Positions 646 to 21,291 of a DNA stretch of 32,016 bases are shown piece by piece. The stretch is from a virus, in IMG/VR virus record IMGVR_UViG_3300034122_001633, positions 1-32,016 of that record; one strand, 5' to 3'. Each line of letters begins with the position of its first letter. Position 1 is the stretch's first letter. The position numbers were made by a program, and so were the translations under genes. Under the pieces are notes generated by a model. That model was not told where the DNA came from. It searched no databases and saw only the letters and a list, made by a program, of their open reading frames with translations.

Positions 646-1320
646 TTATGGTGTTGACCCCATTGGTGGTGACGAGGAAGGGGATGGGGTTGGAGGTGAT
701 TTAGGTGTTTTTGGTTTTGCTTTTTTTGAATTATTTTGGTTTTCTAAATCCTCTAAAGATGGAACTGATTTTGATTTTGGTATCAAAATTGGAGCAAACG
801 GTTTACCCATTCCGCCAAGAACATTTTGCATATTTGCGTTTGCAATATTTCCTAAATTAATATTTACAAAATCATAACCGGAAAGTTGTTTCAATTGTCC
901 TAAAACATTCCCAGCAAAAGCTTTTCCAATAGATCCACCAAAATTTTTAGTTAATCTATCGGCAAAAGATTCTGCACCAGAGACAACATGGGGTCCCAAC
1001 AAATCACCGATACCACCAGCAGCATACATGCCAGCAGCAGCAGCTTTATCCATGTTACTCATATCACCAAACATAACACTGTCTTTTTTTTCTTTTGTCG
1101 GTGCACCTGAACCCGAACCAATTGGACCAAAACTTGTTTTTGGTGGAGTTGGTTTGGAAGTTGTTAATACAGAACTTGATGATGCTTCATTTATATAATG
1201 ATTTTCTGGAAAAAGAATAGAATAATTTTTTATTTTATAATTTGAATCATTATTTTTTTCAATAGATTCATTGATGCTGTACATCAAATACTGAAATTCT
1301 TCTTTTCCTATAAATCTCAT
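646..1320 (-). CDS. Unrecognised protein between gp21 and gp22; possible internal head protein
   Basis: 224 residues, not a family I recognise. It starts 2 bases after the gp21 stop, so it is co-transcribed with the prohead genes. Residues 1-45 are charged; 46-80 are Ser/Thr/Pro-rich; about 90-175 are Gly/Ala-rich and mildly hydrophobic (MYAAGG, FAGNVLGQ); the last 45 residues are Lys/Pro/Ser-rich and probably disordered. Two sites fit the gp21 cleavage pattern (Ile/Leu-x-Glu before Ala/Ser/Gly): INE-S at residues 16-19 and INE-A at 43-46. T4 has no gene between 21 and 22. Position plus cleavage-like sites suggest a protein packed in the prohead and trimmed by gp21, but this is inference. Confidence 0.8.
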   Translation of the reverse strand: MRFIGKEEFQYLMYSINESIEKNNDSNYKIKNYSILFPENHYINEASSSSVLTTSKPTPPKTSFGPIGSGSGAPTKEKKDSVMFGDMSNMDKAAAAGMYAAGGIGDLLGPHVVSGAESFADRLTKNFGGSIGKAFAGNVLGQLKQLSGYDFVNINLGNIANANMQNVLGGMGKPFAPILIPKSKSVPSLEDLENQNNSKKAKPKTPKSPPTPSPSSSPPMGSTP

Positions 1321-1322
1321 TT

Positions 1323-1967
1323 TTATAAATTTTTAAAGTAATTTTCAAATATCTTTACAATATTTTTATTTAAATTTCTAGAAGAAGAATTTTTAATAGT
1401 TTTAATTGATTGTTCATGCATTCTTTCGGACCAAATTCCATTATTAAAAATCCATTCTCTTCCTTCCATAATGCCATTGACAAAAGCATTTGGTGCAGAT
1501 GGGTCAGCAACAATGTCTATTGCTGCCAACATAAAATCTTCTTGAACTTCTTGAAATCCATTTTTGGATTTCAATGATCCCATTCCACGTGTAGATACAC
1601 CGAGTTGGGCTCCTTCATCGATAAGATTTTTTACAATTTTTCCCATCGGAGTATCAAGAACTTTTGCTCTTCCTACAATATTATTTCCGTCTTCGTGAAG
1701 TTCTTTTACGATATGCGATACTCTATCCAAATTTACGGTAGGACCGGTTGGATGGTTTAATTCTCCTAAAGCGCGCCCCTTTGCAACGTATTCATTAATG
1801 TATCTTTTGCATTCTTTTATTAATGTATTTTGTGGATAAATTCTTCCGTTGCGATTTTTTACTCCGGCTTGCATAAAAACGCCATCAATATAATAATTTT
1901 TATCGCCGTTTCCGACGTTTTCTTTGATGTATTTTATGTCTTCAGTTAATTCAGTTATTAGTTTCAT
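1323..1967 (-). CDS. gp21: Prohead core protease gp21
   Basis: 214 residues, close to the T4 length of about 212. The maturation protease sits in the prohead core and cleaves scaffold and capsid proteins before DNA packaging. Visible family motifs are GELNHP with the catalytic His near residue 72, the central GVSTRG with the catalytic Ser near residue 125, and a downstream DIVADPSAP with candidate acidic residues at 151 and 155. The N-terminal FMQAGVKNRNGRIYP is also typical of T4-like prohead proteases. Its start overlaps the 3' end of the small gene at 1951-2124 by 17 bases. The local order portal, two core proteins, protease is the T4 order 20-67-68-21. Confidence 0.93.
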   Translation of the reverse strand: MKLITELTEDIKYIKENVGNGDKNYYIDGVFMQAGVKNRNGRIYPQNTLIKECKRYINEYVAKGRALGELNHPTGPTVNLDRVSHIVKELHEDGNNIVGRAKVLDTPMGKIVKNLIDEGAQLGVSTRGMGSLKSKNGFQEVQEDFMLAAIDIVADPSAPNAFVNGIMEGREWIFNNGIWSERMHEQSIKTIKNSSSRNLNKNIVKIFENYFKNL

Positions 1968-4103: not shown

Positions 4104-4649
4104 TTATGTTATTTTTGTAATAAATGCACCATCTGGACCGAGTAATTCAATATAATCATAAACAATGATCACGTTAAAAGTATTTAACAAGTTGTTTGAA
4201 GTCATATTCAAACCAATTGGATCTATTGATGTTGGCCAGCAACCATGCATTACATATTGTTTTAATGGATTACCAGAATCATTTAAATTTAAATGTTTTA
4301 TTTTCCAGTTATCTGCTTTATAAGAATTTGTGGAATTTAAAATATAAGATTGATTGGTATCATGCTTATTAATTAAATTTTGCCATGTGTGAAATGCTGA
4401 CCACAAATCTTTTCCGGATCCAGTATCATCCAAAACACTGAAAGACCAAGTTGAATACTGTTTTTCCCCGGGATAATAAAATTTTCTTCCAAAGTGAGAA
4501 TATTCTAATGTAGTGGATGACAGCTGTGGAACTTGAGTAGATCTTACATGAAATTTTGTAAAACTGCCGCCACCGGGTATAATTCCCGTAATTTCAAAAC
4601 GATTTGCTCTAGTTCCACCTTGAAAATTGCTTTTGAATTGATTAAGCAT
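4104..4649 (-). CDS. gp19: Tail tube protein gp19, copy 1 (promoter-distal)
   Basis: 181 residues. The N-terminal FKSNFQGGTRANRFEI is the hallmark opening of T4-like tail tube subunits, and the last third has the family's CWPTSIDPIGLNMTSNN pattern followed by a beta-strand ending (FNVIIVYDYIELL). Tube subunits stack as hexameric rings inside the sheath and form the DNA channel. Its ATG overlaps the stop of the second gp19-like gene by one base, so the two are coupled. The sequences are clearly paralogous (shared GGTR.NRFE, a YxGxR/K.Y strand and C-terminal strand) but diverged, so this is not a recent duplication. Which copy makes the main tube cannot be told from sequence. Confidence 0.88.
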   Translation of the reverse strand: MLNQFKSNFQGGTRANRFEITGIIPGGGSFTKFHVRSTQVPQLSSTTLEYSHFGRKFYYPGEKQYSTWSFSVLDDTGSGKDLWSAFHTWQNLINKHDTNQSYILNSTNSYKADNWKIKHLNLNDSGNPLKQYVMHGCWPTSIDPIGLNMTSNNLLNTFNVIIVYDYIELLGPDGAFITKIT

Positions 4650-5200
4650 TATATTTGTGCTCCGTTTCTTAATCCAGAAACAATTTCCATGTGATCAAAA
4701 GTCAACGAAACATTAAAAGCCACAAAATTGGTTTCACCCATATTTAAAGAGATATCGCCAATTACGTTGGGCCAACACTTATATAAATTTATTGTTCTTA
4801 ATATATTTCCATTAAGACCCAATTGTTTTACTGTCCAAGTTGTTTGTAAATTTGAATAACTATAATCATTATTGGCAACTTTATGATTATAGTGACCATC
4901 CAATGCTTCTTTCCATTGATTTAAAGCGCGCCATGTGCTAGCCGATTCTCCATCATCATATATACCGACAATCCATGGCTCATAACTTCTATCTCCGGCA
5001 TAACTTATAGTTCTTCCACGATATGGAATACCTATTGTGTTTATTTTTGCTCTAGGCAAAGAAGCCGATACTACTTTGAATTTAAAAGATTGTCCGGGTC
5101 TTGATGTTACCGCTGACGGCCAAGTGGCAAAAACTTCAAACCTATTTGGCCTTGTTCCACCATTAAATGAATTTTTAAAATTTATTAGTGAATTTGTCAT
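4649..5200 (-). CDS. gp19: Tail tube protein gp19, copy 2 (promoter-proximal)
   Basis: 183 residues, opening with FKNSFNGGTRPNRFEV, the same signature as its neighbour and as T4 gp19. It has the central YAGDRSYEPW strand and the C-terminal CWPNVIGDISLNMGETN followed by FNVSLTFDHMEI. The gene starts one base into the sheath-gene stop (TAATG overlap), so it is in the same transcript as gp18 behind the late promoter at 6514-6520. Tandem diverged tube genes suggest either two tube ring types or a tube plus a specialised terminal ring; the window does not settle this. Confidence 0.88.
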   Translation of the reverse strand: MTNSLINFKNSFNGGTRPNRFEVFATWPSAVTSRPGQSFKFKVVSASLPRAKINTIGIPYRGRTISYAGDRSYEPWIVGIYDDGESASTWRALNQWKEALDGHYNHKVANNDYSYSNLQTTWTVKQLGLNGNILRTINLYKCWPNVIGDISLNMGETNFVAFNVSLTFDHMEIVSGLRNGAQI

Positions 5201-18006: not shown

Positions 18007-18426
18007 ATGGCATACAAAACTAAATACAAACCCGAAAATAAACAAAAATATGTCGGAGATGTTGATAATATAGTTTGTAGGTCTTTATGGGAAAGATCTG
18101 TATGTAAATTTTTAGATCAAAATCAAAATATATTGAAATGGTCTTCCGAAGAAATACAAATACCATATTTGAATCCATTTGATAATAAAATGCACAACTA
18201 CTATCCAGATTTTTTGGTGCAATTTAAAGAGGGGACATCTTTAAAATGTTGGTTGATAGAAATAAAACCAAAAAAACAAACGTATTTAAAAGAAAATGCA
18301 TCAAAGAAAGAAAAAATAACTTGGGGCATTAATCAAGCAAAATGGAATGCTGCAAAAAATTATTGTGATAAAAATAATTTTGAATTTAAAATACTAACAG
18401 AAAAAGAACTATTTACCAATGGCTAA
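18007..18426 (+). CDS. gp4: Head completion nuclease gp4
   Basis: 139 residues from the ATG at 18007; a TTG one codon earlier is less likely because T4-like gp4 begins MA(Y/R). Motifs are NKQKYVGD (residues 11-18), RSLWER, YYPDFLVQ with a candidate metal-binding Asp at 68, and LIEIKPKKQT with Glu-x-Lys at 85-87, then TWGINQAKWNAAKNYC. This is the PD-(D/E)xK nuclease layout of TnsA-type enzymes. In T4, gp4 (also called gp50 or gp65) acts in completing the filled head before tail joining. It overlaps the next gene by 8 bases. Confidence 0.9.
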   Translation: MAYKTKYKPENKQKYVGDVDNIVCRSLWERSVCKFLDQNQNILKWSSEEIQIPYLNPFDNKMHNYYPDFLVQFKEGTSLKCWLIEIKPKKQTYLKENASKKEKITWGINQAKWNAAKNYCDKNNFEFKILTEKELFTNG

Positions 18427-18979
18427 TCCACAAAATTCAATTTTTGAAATTAAAAATTTTTTTGGTAGGCATCAAGGTCTACAAAGAGATAATAGATATA
18501 GTATTTCCTTTGAAAATTTGCCTCCAGAGGTTCCTGTGTGGTCGGAGCAAGATCTTTATTCAATAACTGCTGCAGCGGGAGCAAGAGGAATCGATGCTAT
18601 TGCTGATAATCTTTCTGGGTATGGCCCGGGAAGAATTGTACCTAGATCTCAAAAATTTGTTGGTGGAGTATTACTGACATTTCCAATAACGAATGATAAT
18701 TTTATTGTAGATTTTTTTAATAAATGGTTTAATTCAATTTATTCTGGTGGAAGAAATGCAAATAATAAACCTTATCTTGTTCAATATTATGACACCCACG
18801 TTTATAATGTAAAAATGAGATTAAAAATATTAGATCCAAATGGAAATATAAACAAAACTCTTTTGTTTCATGAAGTGTTTCCAGTCGAATGTATTCCTTT
18901 TGAATTTAATATGGCACAAGCAAATGAATATTTAAAATATCAAGTATTGATGAATTATCGTGAATTTACTTTAATTTAA
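18419..18979 (+). CDS. Baseplate tube-initiator-like protein (gp54-like)
   Basis: 186 residues. The N-terminal FEIKNFFGRHQGLQRDNRYSISFENLP and C-terminal HEVFPVECIPFEFNMAQANEYLKYQVLMNYREF have the tail-tube fold pattern: an Asn-Arg-(Tyr/Phe) strand at the start and a final strand ending in Tyr-Arg-Glu-Phe. In T4 the baseplate proteins of this kind are gp48 and gp54, which sit between hub and tube. The gene lies between gp4 and gp26 and about 450 bases from the divergent gp48-like gene, so gp54 is the best call. It is shorter than T4 gp54 (320 aa). It could instead be a third gp19-type tube protein. Confidence 0.6.
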   Translation: MANPQNSIFEIKNFFGRHQGLQRDNRYSISFENLPPEVPVWSEQDLYSITAAAGARGIDAIADNLSGYGPGRIVPRSQKFVGGVLLTFPITNDNFIVDFFNKWFNSIYSGGRNANNKPYLVQYYDTHVYNVKMRLKILDPNGNINKTLLFHEVFPVECIPFEFNMAQANEYLKYQVLMNYREFTLI

Positions 18980-18980
18980 A

Positions 18981-19655
18981 ATGGAATATCAAATGGATTT
19001 AGCAAAAGAAATAAACAATTTTTTACCAAAATATAAAACTACATTGCCCTTTTCAAAAAAGGATGTAACGTTCGTACCATTTAAAGTAAAAGATGCAAAA
19101 AATATTGCTACTATTTTACAAGAAAATAACAGATATCTTGCTTTTAATGCTATGGTAGATATTTTAAAAAGAAACGTAGAAGGAGTTAATCTTAATGATC
19201 TTTGTTTAGCGGATGCAGAATTTTTATTTTTACAAATAAGATCAAAAAGTGTTGATGAAATGTTAAATTTGGTATACAATAAAGAAAAAATACAGATTAA
19301 TATATCCGAGATAAAGGCAACAAATAGTCTACAAAATGAACAAATATCAGTTGGAGAAAATTTATCAATTATTGTAAAAACACCAAGTATTAAAGATTTG
19401 CTAAAAATAAATGGCACAGAAAAAGAAGATTTCATCAAAGCATCAATAAAAAATGTTTTATTAAAAAATGAAATATATGATTGTTCAAAATTTATGCCAG
19501 AAGAAATAAAAGAAGTAATGGCAAATTTGCCTTTAAATATCATAACAAAACTTGATGATTTTTTGAAAAAAGAACCACAATTATATTTGTCAGTTGAAAC
19601 TAGTGAAGGTAAAAAGGAGGTCTCCGGGTTACTTAATTTTTTTATCTATCGGTAA
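18981..19655 (+). CDS. gp26: Baseplate hub assembly protein gp26 (zero-frame product)
   Basis: 224 residues (T4 gp26: 208). The region TLPFSKKDVTFVPFKVKDAKNIATIL (about 20-45) and ADAEFLFLQIRSKSVDEML (about 79-97) are the conserved gp26 blocks: a Leu-Pro opening, a strand ending in Pro-Phe-x-Val-Lys, and the Leu-Phe-Leu-Gln-x-Arg-x-Lys-Ser-Val motif. gp26 helps assemble the central hub and is not in the mature particle in quantity. The gene begins 1 base after the previous stop, without a clear Shine-Dalgarno; a second Met at residue 5 is possible. Codons 220-221 (Phe-Phe) are the slippery site described below; without slippage only three more residues follow. Confidence 0.85.
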   Translation: MEYQMDLAKEINNFLPKYKTTLPFSKKDVTFVPFKVKDAKNIATILQENNRYLAFNAMVDILKRNVEGVNLNDLCLADAEFLFLQIRSKSVDEMLNLVYNKEKIQINISEIKATNSLQNEQISVGENLSIIVKTPSIKDLLKINGTEKEDFIKASIKNVLLKNEIYDCSKFMPEEIKEVMANLPLNIITKLDDFLKKEPQLYLSVETSEGKKEVSGLLNFFIYR

Positions 19656-19696
19656 AGTTTTTTGATTTGGCTGATTATTTTTCAACTAACTTTACC
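19637..19696 (+). promoter_or_regulatory. Programmed -1 frameshift signal: T-TTT-TTT heptamer plus downstream stem
   Basis: Seven consecutive T at 19637-19643 in the frame T-TTT-TTT, the correct register for a -1 slip on two Phe codons. After a 7-base spacer, GGTAAAGTT at 19651-19659 can pair perfectly with AACTTTACC at 19688-19696; TTGA at 19662-19665 with TCAA at 19682-19685 extends the stem. The gp26 stop (19653-19655) lies inside it. The -1 frame has a TAA at 19634-19636, immediately before the heptamer, and is open from there to 19844. Confidence 0.75.
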
Positions 19697-19846
19697 ATGA
19701 TTAGCAAATACAATTGGAGAATATCTGATATTGAAATGTTGGCACCTTGGGAAAGAGAAATATATATTACATTAATTGCAGCCAACGAAGAAAGAAAAAA
19801 AGAACAAAACATGCAAAATTCAATGATGCAAGGAAATAATTTTTAA
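19637..19846 (+). CDS. gp51-position tail/hub assembly frame, expressed as a gp26 fusion by -1 frameshift
   Basis: In the -1 frame 67 codons are open from 19643 to a TAA at 19844-19846. A fusion of gp26 residues 1-221 with these would have 288 residues. The extension contains KYNWRISDIEMLAPWEREIYITLI, an aromatic/acidic helix of a type seen in tail-assembly chaperone extensions, then a Gln/Asn/Met-rich end. The only internal ATG (19697) has no Shine-Dalgarno. T4 gene 51, the hub assembly catalyst, directly follows gene 26, so this is the gene 51 position; I do not claim sequence similarity. The logic mirrors lambda G/GT and P2 E/E' chaperones. Its stop overlaps the next ATG (TAATG). Confidence 0.72.
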   Translation, partial: FFYLSVKFFDLADYFSTNFTMISKYNWRISDIEMLAPWEREIYITLIAANEERKKEQNMQNSMMQGNNF

Positions 19847-20409
19847 TGAATGAAGAAAATAATATTTCAATGGATTTTGAAGCAGAGAGACAATTAATGT
19901 CTCCAATTATTAATGTTTTTAATGAAGAAATTTCTACTACAAACAATGTTTTATTTGATCCAAAATTACCAGAGTCTGATTTAATTCAAAGTTTAGAATC
20001 TACAGAATTGCCACAAACACAATTTATTGTTTCTTCAAAAACAAATGAAACAAATTTTGTAGATAATTTATTACCCGAATCACAACCAATATCTCAAAAT
20101 TTTGGTGTGGAGTTGCCTGAAGCATCTTTTATGATTCCAACAGAAACTACAGATTCTTTTAGTTCCCAGATGCTAGAAGCACAATTTTCAAAAACAATAA
20201 CGCCAACAAATATTGAAAGTGATGTTGATTCTTTGTATCAAAAAACTAAATCTTTAGAAGAAAGTATTATGAATTTACAAAATAGAGGTGATGGTTGGTT
20301 AAAAACAAAAGAACGAGATTCTTTTGAAGAAAGACCTACAGTAGAACCAACAAATTTGGTATTTGAACAAAGAAAAATGCGGTCAAGCACCATTCCAGAA
20401 TGGGCATAA
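19846..20409 (+). CDS. Acidic low-complexity protein, coupled to the gp26/gp51 frame
   Basis: 187 residues, unrecognised. It starts on the last base of the preceding stop (TAATG), so its translation depends on ribosomes that read the shifted frame, or at least is coupled to them. The sequence is acidic and polar, with few aromatic residues, and shows degenerate repeats built on Leu-Pro-Glu-Ser/Ala (LPESDL near 42, LPQTQF near 55, LPESQP near 75, LPEASF near 90). The last 20 residues (EQRKMRSSTIPEWA) end in a conserved-looking basic then Pro-Glu-Trp-Ala. It may be a tail assembly factor; it is too short for a tape measure of the T4 tail. The terminator at 20411-20430 follows. Confidence 0.8.
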   Translation: MNEENNISMDFEAERQLMSPIINVFNEEISTTNNVLFDPKLPESDLIQSLESTELPQTQFIVSSKTNETNFVDNLLPESQPISQNFGVELPEASFMIPTETTDSFSSQMLEAQFSKTITPTNIESDVDSLYQKTKSLEESIMNLQNRGDGWLKTKERDSFEERPTVEPTNLVFEQRKMRSSTIPEWA

Positions 20410-20410
20410 A

Positions 20411-20430
20411 AAACCCCCTTTCGGGGGTTT
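20411..20430. terminator. Strong bidirectional hairpin terminator between convergent genes
   Basis: AAACCCCC at 20411-20418 pairs with GGGGGTTT at 20423-20430, loop TTTC; on the minus strand the loop is GAAA. It sits between the convergent ends of the 19846-20409 gene and gp32, with A-runs on the left and TTTTCTTT on the right, so it can serve both strands. Confidence 0.85.
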
Positions 20431-20433
20431 TCT

Positions 20434-21291
20434 TTAATCATTCTCCATTTCGGAAAAATATTTTAGAGGATCTTTTTCCTCCACATCTTCCACAACTGAA
20501 GTCTCTTCAACATCATCCTCAATGCTCTTACTTTCAGCAAACTGAGCACGGATGTCGTCTCCGACAGACTTCTTGAATCTGGCATTCAACTCGTCAAAGC
20601 TCTTAAACTGACTCTTGTCAACGAAGGGCTTGAGCGGGTACTGCTTCTTCCAAATTTCCTCAAGCTTCTTGTCCTCGCCACCAAACAAAGGTGCTGGTGT
20701 CGCAAACTCGCTTCGGTCGTAGTTTACATATCCACCGACATTGCGAATCTTGATTTTGAAGTCTGCTCCAGTCCAGAAGTTGAAAGGATCTACCGCAACT
20801 TCATCTTGGAATTCTGGATGAGCAAGGCTCTGGATCTTTTGGAAGATCTTAGTACCATACTGATAAAGGAAGACCTTTCCCTTATTCTCTGGATTAGCAG
20901 GATCTTCAATAACCAAGATATTGGAAATGTAAGTCAGCTTACGCTTACGATTACGTGCAATGTTTTTATCATCCTCAATACCACTGTTCCACAATTCCGT
21001 ATTTGCTGCACACACCGGGCACTTTTCACCAATGGTAGTTGGGCAGTTTTCATAGAACCAGCCACCCTTGCCCTTGAAGGTATGGCTATAAACCGCCACA
21101 AATGGGCTATCTTCATTTTCTATTTCTGGCAGAAAACGAATTACAGCGTATCCATTTCCCGCTTTGTCAATTCCGGGTTTCCACATTCTTTCATCTTTAT
21201 AACTTTCTTTAGAAGTCATCTTATCAAGACGCTCAGTTAAAGATGCGACCGAATTTTTACTCTTCTTTTTAAAATCTGAAAAATTTCCCAT
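20434..21291 (-). CDS. gp32: Single-stranded DNA-binding protein gp32
   Basis: 285 residues from the ATG at 21291 (MGNFSDFKKKSKNSV); T4 gp32 has 301. A longer frame reaches 21348 but its N-terminus is not gp32-like. The N-terminal basic stretch drives cooperativity; the zinc site is His70, Cys83, Cys91 and Cys94 (YSHTF, ENCPT, EKCPVC); the core continues with IARNRKRKLTYISNILVIEDPANPENKGKVFLYQYGTKIF; the C-terminus is acidic (DDVEETSVVEDVEEKDPL), the protein-interaction tail. It coats single-stranded DNA in replication, recombination and repair. Codons are noticeably richer in C and G than in the flanking structural genes, as for a highly expressed gene. A hairpin lies just upstream of its start. 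Confidence 0.97.
   Translation of the reverse strand: MGNFSDFKKKSKNSVASLTERLDKMTSKESYKDERMWKPGIDKAGNGYAVIRFLPEIENEDSPFVAVYSHTFKGKGGWFYENCPTTIGEKCPVCAANTELWNSGIEDDKNIARNRKRKLTYISNILVIEDPANPENKGKVFLYQYGTKIFQKIQSLAHPEFQDEVAVDPFNFWTGADFKIKIRNVGGYVNYDRSEFATPAPLFGGEDKKLEEIWKKQYPLKPFVDKSQFKSFDELNARFKKSVGDDIRAQFAESKSIEDDVEETSVVEDVEEKDPLKYFSEMEND

Follow-up and report, generated by a model that had tools for sequence, protein, structure and literature searches.

We find that the gp26 gene of a T4-like virus very probably ends in a programmed −1 frameshift, by which one tail assembly chaperone (TAC) gene would yield both a short and a long chaperone; from comparison of related sequences we put the probability of this reading at about 0.93. 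The window, that is, the whole 32,016-base virus record analysed (IMG/VR IMGVR_UViG_3300034122_001633), carries T4-type portal, terminase, neck, sheath, tube, protease and head-completion genes. A preliminary description of this DNA had proposed a −1 frameshift joining gp26 to a gp51-like extension, and the proposal is strongly supported by a slippery heptamer present in every distinct locus of two samples of relatives (90/90 and 99/99), by selection on the −1 frame and by a match of the extension to the PHROG family of gp51.

The features of the locus are collected in Table 1. The gp26 product matches Pfam T4_baseplate (PF12322) with 96.3 bits against a curated cut-off of 24.5 (E = 2.8e-27) and PHROG 150 with E = 1.7e-27. 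Its gene ends AAT TTT TTT ATC TAT CGG TAA, and the 0-frame codons AAT (19635-19637), TTT (19638-19640) and TTT (19641-19643) confirm that T_TTT_TTT lies in the right register. The −1 frame, shut by a TAA immediately before the heptamer, is then open from 19637 to 19843 (69 codons, 67 of them after the two Phe codons), and its stop overlaps the ATG of the next gene; both this layout and the 288-residue fusion (221 + 67 residues) are as first described. The extension matches PHROG 634, the baseplate hub assembly catalyst or gp51 (E = 3.5e-15, profile positions 62-116 of 121). The tryptic junction peptides predicted for the window phage are EVSGLLNFFIYR for the short form and EVSGLLNFFYLSVK for the long form.

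Table 1. Features at the 3' end of the gp26 gene, in window coordinates.
Feature	Position	Strand	Evidence or remark
gp26 homologue, putative short tail assembly chaperone (TAC-N), 224 aa	18981..19655	+	Pfam T4_baseplate, PHROG 150
AAGGAGG, Shine-Dalgarno-like, inside gp26, candidate stimulator	19614..19620	+	16 nt 5' of heptamer
TAA closing the −1 frame just 5' of the heptamer	19634..19636	+	sequence; upstream −1 open length 0
Slippery heptamer T_TTT_TTT, gp26 frame	19637..19643	+	X_XXY_YYZ in register
−1 frame extension including stop, predicted gp51-like part of the long form (TAC-NC)	19637..19846	+	PHROG 634; pN/pS
5' stem arm, GGTAAAGTT	19651..19659	+	7-nt spacer after heptamer
gp26 stop TAA	19653..19655	+	9 nt past heptamer, within 5' stem arm
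3' stem arm, AACTTTACC	19688..19696	+	perfect 9 bp with 19651-19659
Next gene, 187 aa	19846..20409	+	ATG 19846-19848 overlaps extension stop TAA 19844-19846

Taken alone, the signals in the window sequence are only moderately unusual. The 33 window genes listed contain 185 in-frame X_XXY_YYZ heptamers in which Y is A or T, and the −1 frame of 14 of these genes runs at least 50 codons beyond the stop. Two genes have both such a long −1 frame and a heptamer at their end: gp26 and the head maturation protease gene (PHROG 207; 1323-1967, minus strand), which has an in-frame A_AAT_TTA right at its stop. The −1 frame of the protease gene is the next gene (646-1320, minus strand), and this arrangement is probably an ordinary gene junction. 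It is the comparative evidence, not the single sequence, that lifts the case for frameshifting at gp26 beyond chance.

A tblastn search with the extension matched 589 phage records at E ≤ 10, and the match began at residue 1, the slippery Phe, in all 60 rows taken at even steps through the list. Our first sample of 102 loci consisted of the window, one IMG/VR contig with a 76% identical gp26, 20 named phages and 80 IMG/VR relatives (the best 80 of 596); 12 duplicates were dropped, leaving 90 distinct loci. The named phages, hand-picked from the hit lists for spread, include Kyanoviridae, Aeh1 and phiAS5 (Straboviridae), Atu_ph04 (Pootjesviridae) and vibrio-, rhizobium-, caulobacter-, pelagibacter-, stenotrophomonas-, desulfovibrio- and pseudomonas phages. 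Left out were L001-L006, which have the same heptamer, and L008, an incomplete locus. All 90 distinct loci carry T_TTT_TTH in the gp26 frame (last base T in 57, C in 29 and A in 4), with at least 194 open codons 5' of the heptamer and the gp26 stop 0-9 nt after it. Their −1 extensions are 54-71 codons long, and in none of the 90 do both parts share one frame.

A match beginning with the Phe-Phe of the −1 frame had served to find and place the 80 IMG/VR relatives and 12 of the 20 named phages. Because a match that starts there favors T at the site, we assembled a second sample by searching with gp26 only. It comprised 113 loci, including the best 80 of 598 relatives, from which one incomplete locus and 13 duplicates were dropped to leave 99. 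The gp51-like −1 frame starts at T_TTT_TTC in 81 of these loci and at T_TTT_TTT in the other 18, and grouping at 70% identity places the heptamer in 31/31 groups. The two samples have contigs in common and neither is a census. Within the first sample, gp26 also recovered 8 of the 20 named phages and L007; the heptamer is present in each of these nine, as it is in five loci added later (L114-L116, L117 and L118, the last scanned for the T-run). The conservation of heptamer and −1 open frame that the preliminary description had set as a check thus holds in every distinct locus of both samples; by the same counts, the arrangement is not special to this phage. The loci L114, L115 and L116 lie on contigs filed in bacterial MAGs (Bacteroidetes, Sphingobacteriales and Porticoccaceae), and are probably phage contigs within those bins.

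Codon choice at the site was examined in 30 groups of the first sample formed at 50% identity. Ahead of Phe-Phe stands a codon for Asn, Ser, Asp, Gly or Ala, which has T as its last base in 30/30 groups; the first Phe is TTT in 30/30. From each gene's own codon usage, the products of the chance probabilities are 10^-8.9 for the T-ending codon and 10^-10.8 for TTT, values that take the groups as independent and carry the anchoring caveat given above. In the 31 groups anchored through gp26, T-ending codons have a mean background of 0.64 and TTT one of 0.71. The second slippery position varies among the 30 groups (15 TTC, 13 TTT and 2 TTA), as the X_XXY_YYZ rule predicts.

The extension could instead be a separate small gene 51, re-initiated after the gp26 stop at TTG 19667 or ATG 19697, and it is so annotated in several cyanophage records. 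These two in-frame starts do exist in the window, so that the statement of the preliminary description that the frame has no usable start stands only in part: their anti-Shine-Dalgarno energies are −3.0 and 0 kcal/mol, that is, weak or absent. Neither start is conserved among the relatives. The first 30 codons lack an ATG in 34 of the 90 loci, no start codon (ATG, GTG or TTG) occurs 5' of the heptamer or within those codons in 21, and a start there with an anti-Shine-Dalgarno energy of −5 kcal/mol or better is found in only 3. Purifying selection also acts on codons ahead of the ATG position. For the stretch from the gp26 stop to the position of ATG 19697, the −1 frame of the window's clade (42 members) has a pN/pS of 0.197, versus 0.94 and 1.14 in the other two frames; beyond that position the values are 0.296 versus 1.07 and 1.35. 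These ratios argue that the −1 frame is translated from the heptamer onward. A separate gene would moreover leave the invariant T_TTT unexplained, and we consider it very unlikely.

Slightly less probable still is transcriptional slippage on the T-run, which would produce mRNAs longer or shorter by one base and the same fusion. The window does have a run of 7 T. Transcriptional slippage usually requires about 9 T, whereas 33 of the 90 loci have just 6 T and no locus has more than 8. The register of the run and its free last position suit a ribosomal heptamer, and slippage by the polymerase would leave the stem arms and the Shine-Dalgarno-like motif described below without a role. An assembly error or a decayed gene, in which one original frame lost a base in a homopolymer of the kind where errors are frequent, is negligibly probable given that the frame relation is the same in all 90 and all 99 distinct loci, which come from numerous assemblies and from sequenced isolates, and that both frames are under purifying selection. 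We set all three readings aside on conservation, selection and T-run length.

Downstream of the heptamer, the perfect 9-bp stem first described at a distance of 7 bases was found again. By itself this stem is unremarkable in the window (z = −1.53, with 12 of 200 shuffles folding equally well; z = −1.81 against shuffles synonymous in the −1 frame). In the clade alignment, which covers 36 of the 42 members, 99.7% of the 324 stem cells are paired; covariation there is weak, with 7 of the 9 pairs invariant and one pair changed on both sides, and 69 to 90 of 500 shuffles match the observed values. Codon usage gives a background of 0.17 for AAG in the 5' arm, which is present in 42/42 clade members, and of 0.25 and 0.11 for AAC and ACC in the 3' arm, present in 33/42 and 37/42. 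The arms are thus kept in the clade beyond codon usage, in support of a programmed shift. Over the 30 groups, downstream folding exceeds that of synonymous shuffles (mean z = −1.34 versus −0.40 for 90 control segments of gp26, p = 1e-4); in 40-nt windows there is no excess. Conservation of the stem, also raised as a check, is mixed: it is kept in the window's clade, but 8 of the 30 groups have no stem of at least 5 bp starting 4-14 nt downstream. Other hairpins occupy the same position in several groups, for example those of L010, L018, L021 and L033.

Upstream, an AAGGAGG inside gp26, overlooked in the preliminary description, is likely to be a third frameshift signal. It occurs once in the window, counting both strands. 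The Shine-Dalgarno-like strength is far beyond that of synonymous shuffles in the window (z = −6.2) and across the 42 clade members (mean z = −4.1); 36 members have the exact motif, 4 have GGAGG or GAGG and 2 have neither. Outside the clade, a Shine-Dalgarno-like stretch about 10 nt upstream is common, weaker, and coincides with conserved codons. Enrichment over all 30 groups is modest (mean z = −1.09), and 3 of 29 groups lack any such stretch. The E. coli dnaX gene has the same three-part signal, an upstream Shine-Dalgarno-like motif, a slippery heptamer and a downstream stem. It slips on A_AAA_AAG with a Shine-Dalgarno spacing of roughly 10 nt; the window locus has T_TTT_TTT and a longer spacing of 16 nt. 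A strong internal Shine-Dalgarno motif at this distance offers a testable case of spacing effects. In the available portions of PMC10885494 and PMC12846349 we met no counterpart to AAGGAGG at 16-nt spacing or to the nearly invariant stem of this clade.

We propose that most ribosomes would terminate at the gp26 TAA, giving the 224-residue short form (TAC-N), while a minority would slip by −1 on T_TTT_TTT, presumably through tandem tRNA-Phe slippage, aided by the downstream stem and probably also by pairing of AAGGAGG with 16S rRNA. Shifted ribosomes would pass the gp26 stop and add 67 gp51-like residues to give the 288-residue long form (TAC-NC). By analogy to lambda gpG/gpGT, the tape measure protein would be bound by many copies of the short form and a few of the long one, the latter of which would bring in tail tube subunits.

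Gp26 most likely acts as the short tail assembly chaperone and the fusion as the long one, like lambda G and GT. The predicted structure of gp26 (mean pLDDT 91.3) was compared with the PDB, where HK97 chaperone 2ob9 gave Z 7.0 and rmsd 5.0 over 80 residues in the N-terminal portion, a score that lends support but that unrelated folds may also attain. An equal Z of 7.0 was obtained for 3fgx, making it joint best, and the third-ranked match had Z 3.5. Foldseek found no PDB match to the model at E ≤ 0.001, and profile searches of PDB sequences with alignments of gp26 and of the extension returned nothing meaningful. When the model was compared with predicted viral structures, the top named hits were T4-type baseplate hub chaperones and subunits. 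In T4 reviews, gp26 and gp51 are placed among the chaperones of hub assembly (PMC3004832, in the text available).

The E/E' pair of phage P2 likewise adds a C-terminal domain through a −1 frameshift late in the short gene. The heptamers of lambda and P2 differ from T_TTT_TTT, and the likeness to our locus is one of arrangement, with no sequence similarity claimed. Lambda gpG/gpGT resembles the window locus in gaining a C-terminal domain by a −1 frameshift close to the 3' end of the short chaperone gene (PMC5009743); the accessible part of that paper calls tail chaperone frameshifting widely conserved 'except T4'. According to the accessible text of PMC12846349, the TAC of the Vandenendeviridae phage Adele is alike in having a conserved GTTTTT and a −1 open frame routinely missed in annotation, but belongs to another phage family and has GTTTTT rather than T_TTT_TTH. 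Short and long chaperone forms also occur in Bacillus phage 0305phi8-36 as gp143/gp144, which differ in being two paralogous genes without a frameshift, like T4 26/51 (PMC2147016, as far as its available text goes).

T4 has 26 and 51 as two separate, divergent genes, and so do phiAS4 and AM101; these three were set apart from the samples as two-gene phages. Residues 1-201 of T4 gp51 match the gp26 family (E = 3.9e-52). The protein covers positions 13-280 of 282 in PHROG 150, near the end of that profile, and also matches PHROG 634. These matches make T4 gp51 a gp26 paralogue that carries the extension in the same frame. The profile comparison with T4 gp51 suggested earlier was thus positive, as the extension and T4 gp51 both match PHROG 634; a BLASTP comparison of the extension with T4 gp51 gave nothing meaningful (E = 2.6). 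T4 gene 26 keeps the Phe-Phe but encodes it in G_TTC_TTT, without a heptamer, and T4 has no need of the shift. In a tree of 26 rows, gp51, T4-type gp26 and frameshift-type gp26 separate (excluding L010, whose annotated start is late, and L028, which lacks annotation). The tree is consistent with a duplication in the T4 lineage, read with an arbitrary root (midpoint, with two very long branches). Frameshifting at the window locus and gene duplication in T4 would be two solutions to one need. Tentatively, and at somewhat short of even odds, frameshifting could be the ancestral and commonest arrangement for T4-like TACs, T4 26/51 having arisen by duplication and in-frame fusion with loss of the heptamer, and the window's clade having a new three-part variant of the signal with a near-perfect Shine-Dalgarno motif 16 nt upstream.

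The frameshift arrangement also accounts for two features of earlier comparisons. In the available part of PMC3037559 (Sullivan et al. 2010), cyanophage gp51 is given as 'only ~20% of the length' of other gp51, without the first ~200 residues, and Aeh1 is scored as without gp51; both are expected from frameshifting. The short 'gp51' annotated as its own gene in S-PM2, S-SM1 and S-CAM7 is the −1 extension. At these and other loci, including Aeh1, the "missing" part is gp26 itself, joined by the frameshift, so that some records show a separate small gene, or none, where a long protein is likely.

The preliminary description had regarded a gp26-gp51 fusion made in this way as undescribed, which is doubtful. 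The available portions of PMC10885494 and PMC12846349 credit Vladimirov, Gautam and Davidson (2022) with T4-like TAC genes, and the latter also credits them with poly-T slippery sequences in the TAC-N genes of T4-like phages; the kind of system is therefore known. As cited in PMC10885494, some T4-like phages have a short gene and a fused longer gene without frameshifting. The chaperones of Vladimirov et al. 2022 (Virology 566:9), so far as the record of that paper extends, are gp26/gp51-type with short and long forms, as at the window locus, while the emphasis of its title is on a route that does not involve frameshifting (two genes, like those of T4). Our literature search, in which Vladimirov et al. 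2022 was represented by its title and by citing statements, found no gp26/gp51 frameshift named in the sources it covered, and we make no claim of absence from print.

Around the locus, three window genes match the tail tube family PHROG 45 (4104-4649 and 4649-5200, minus strand; 18419-18979, plus strand), the last of them directly 5' of gp26. No tape measure gene was identified in the window, and the 187-aa product of the next gene has best PHROG matches of only E = 0.018 and 0.073. In HTVC008M and Cr30, an annotated tape measure gene lies 3' of the extension with one small gene in between. Five other loci (L013, L014, L017, L027 and L117) have a large hypothetical gene directly 3' of the extension, which by its position may be an unannotated tape measure gene. 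At 20410-20435, 3' of gene 19846-20409, we noted by eye a terminator-like C5/G5 hairpin followed by a T-rich stretch; some relatives have more tail genes at this point instead.
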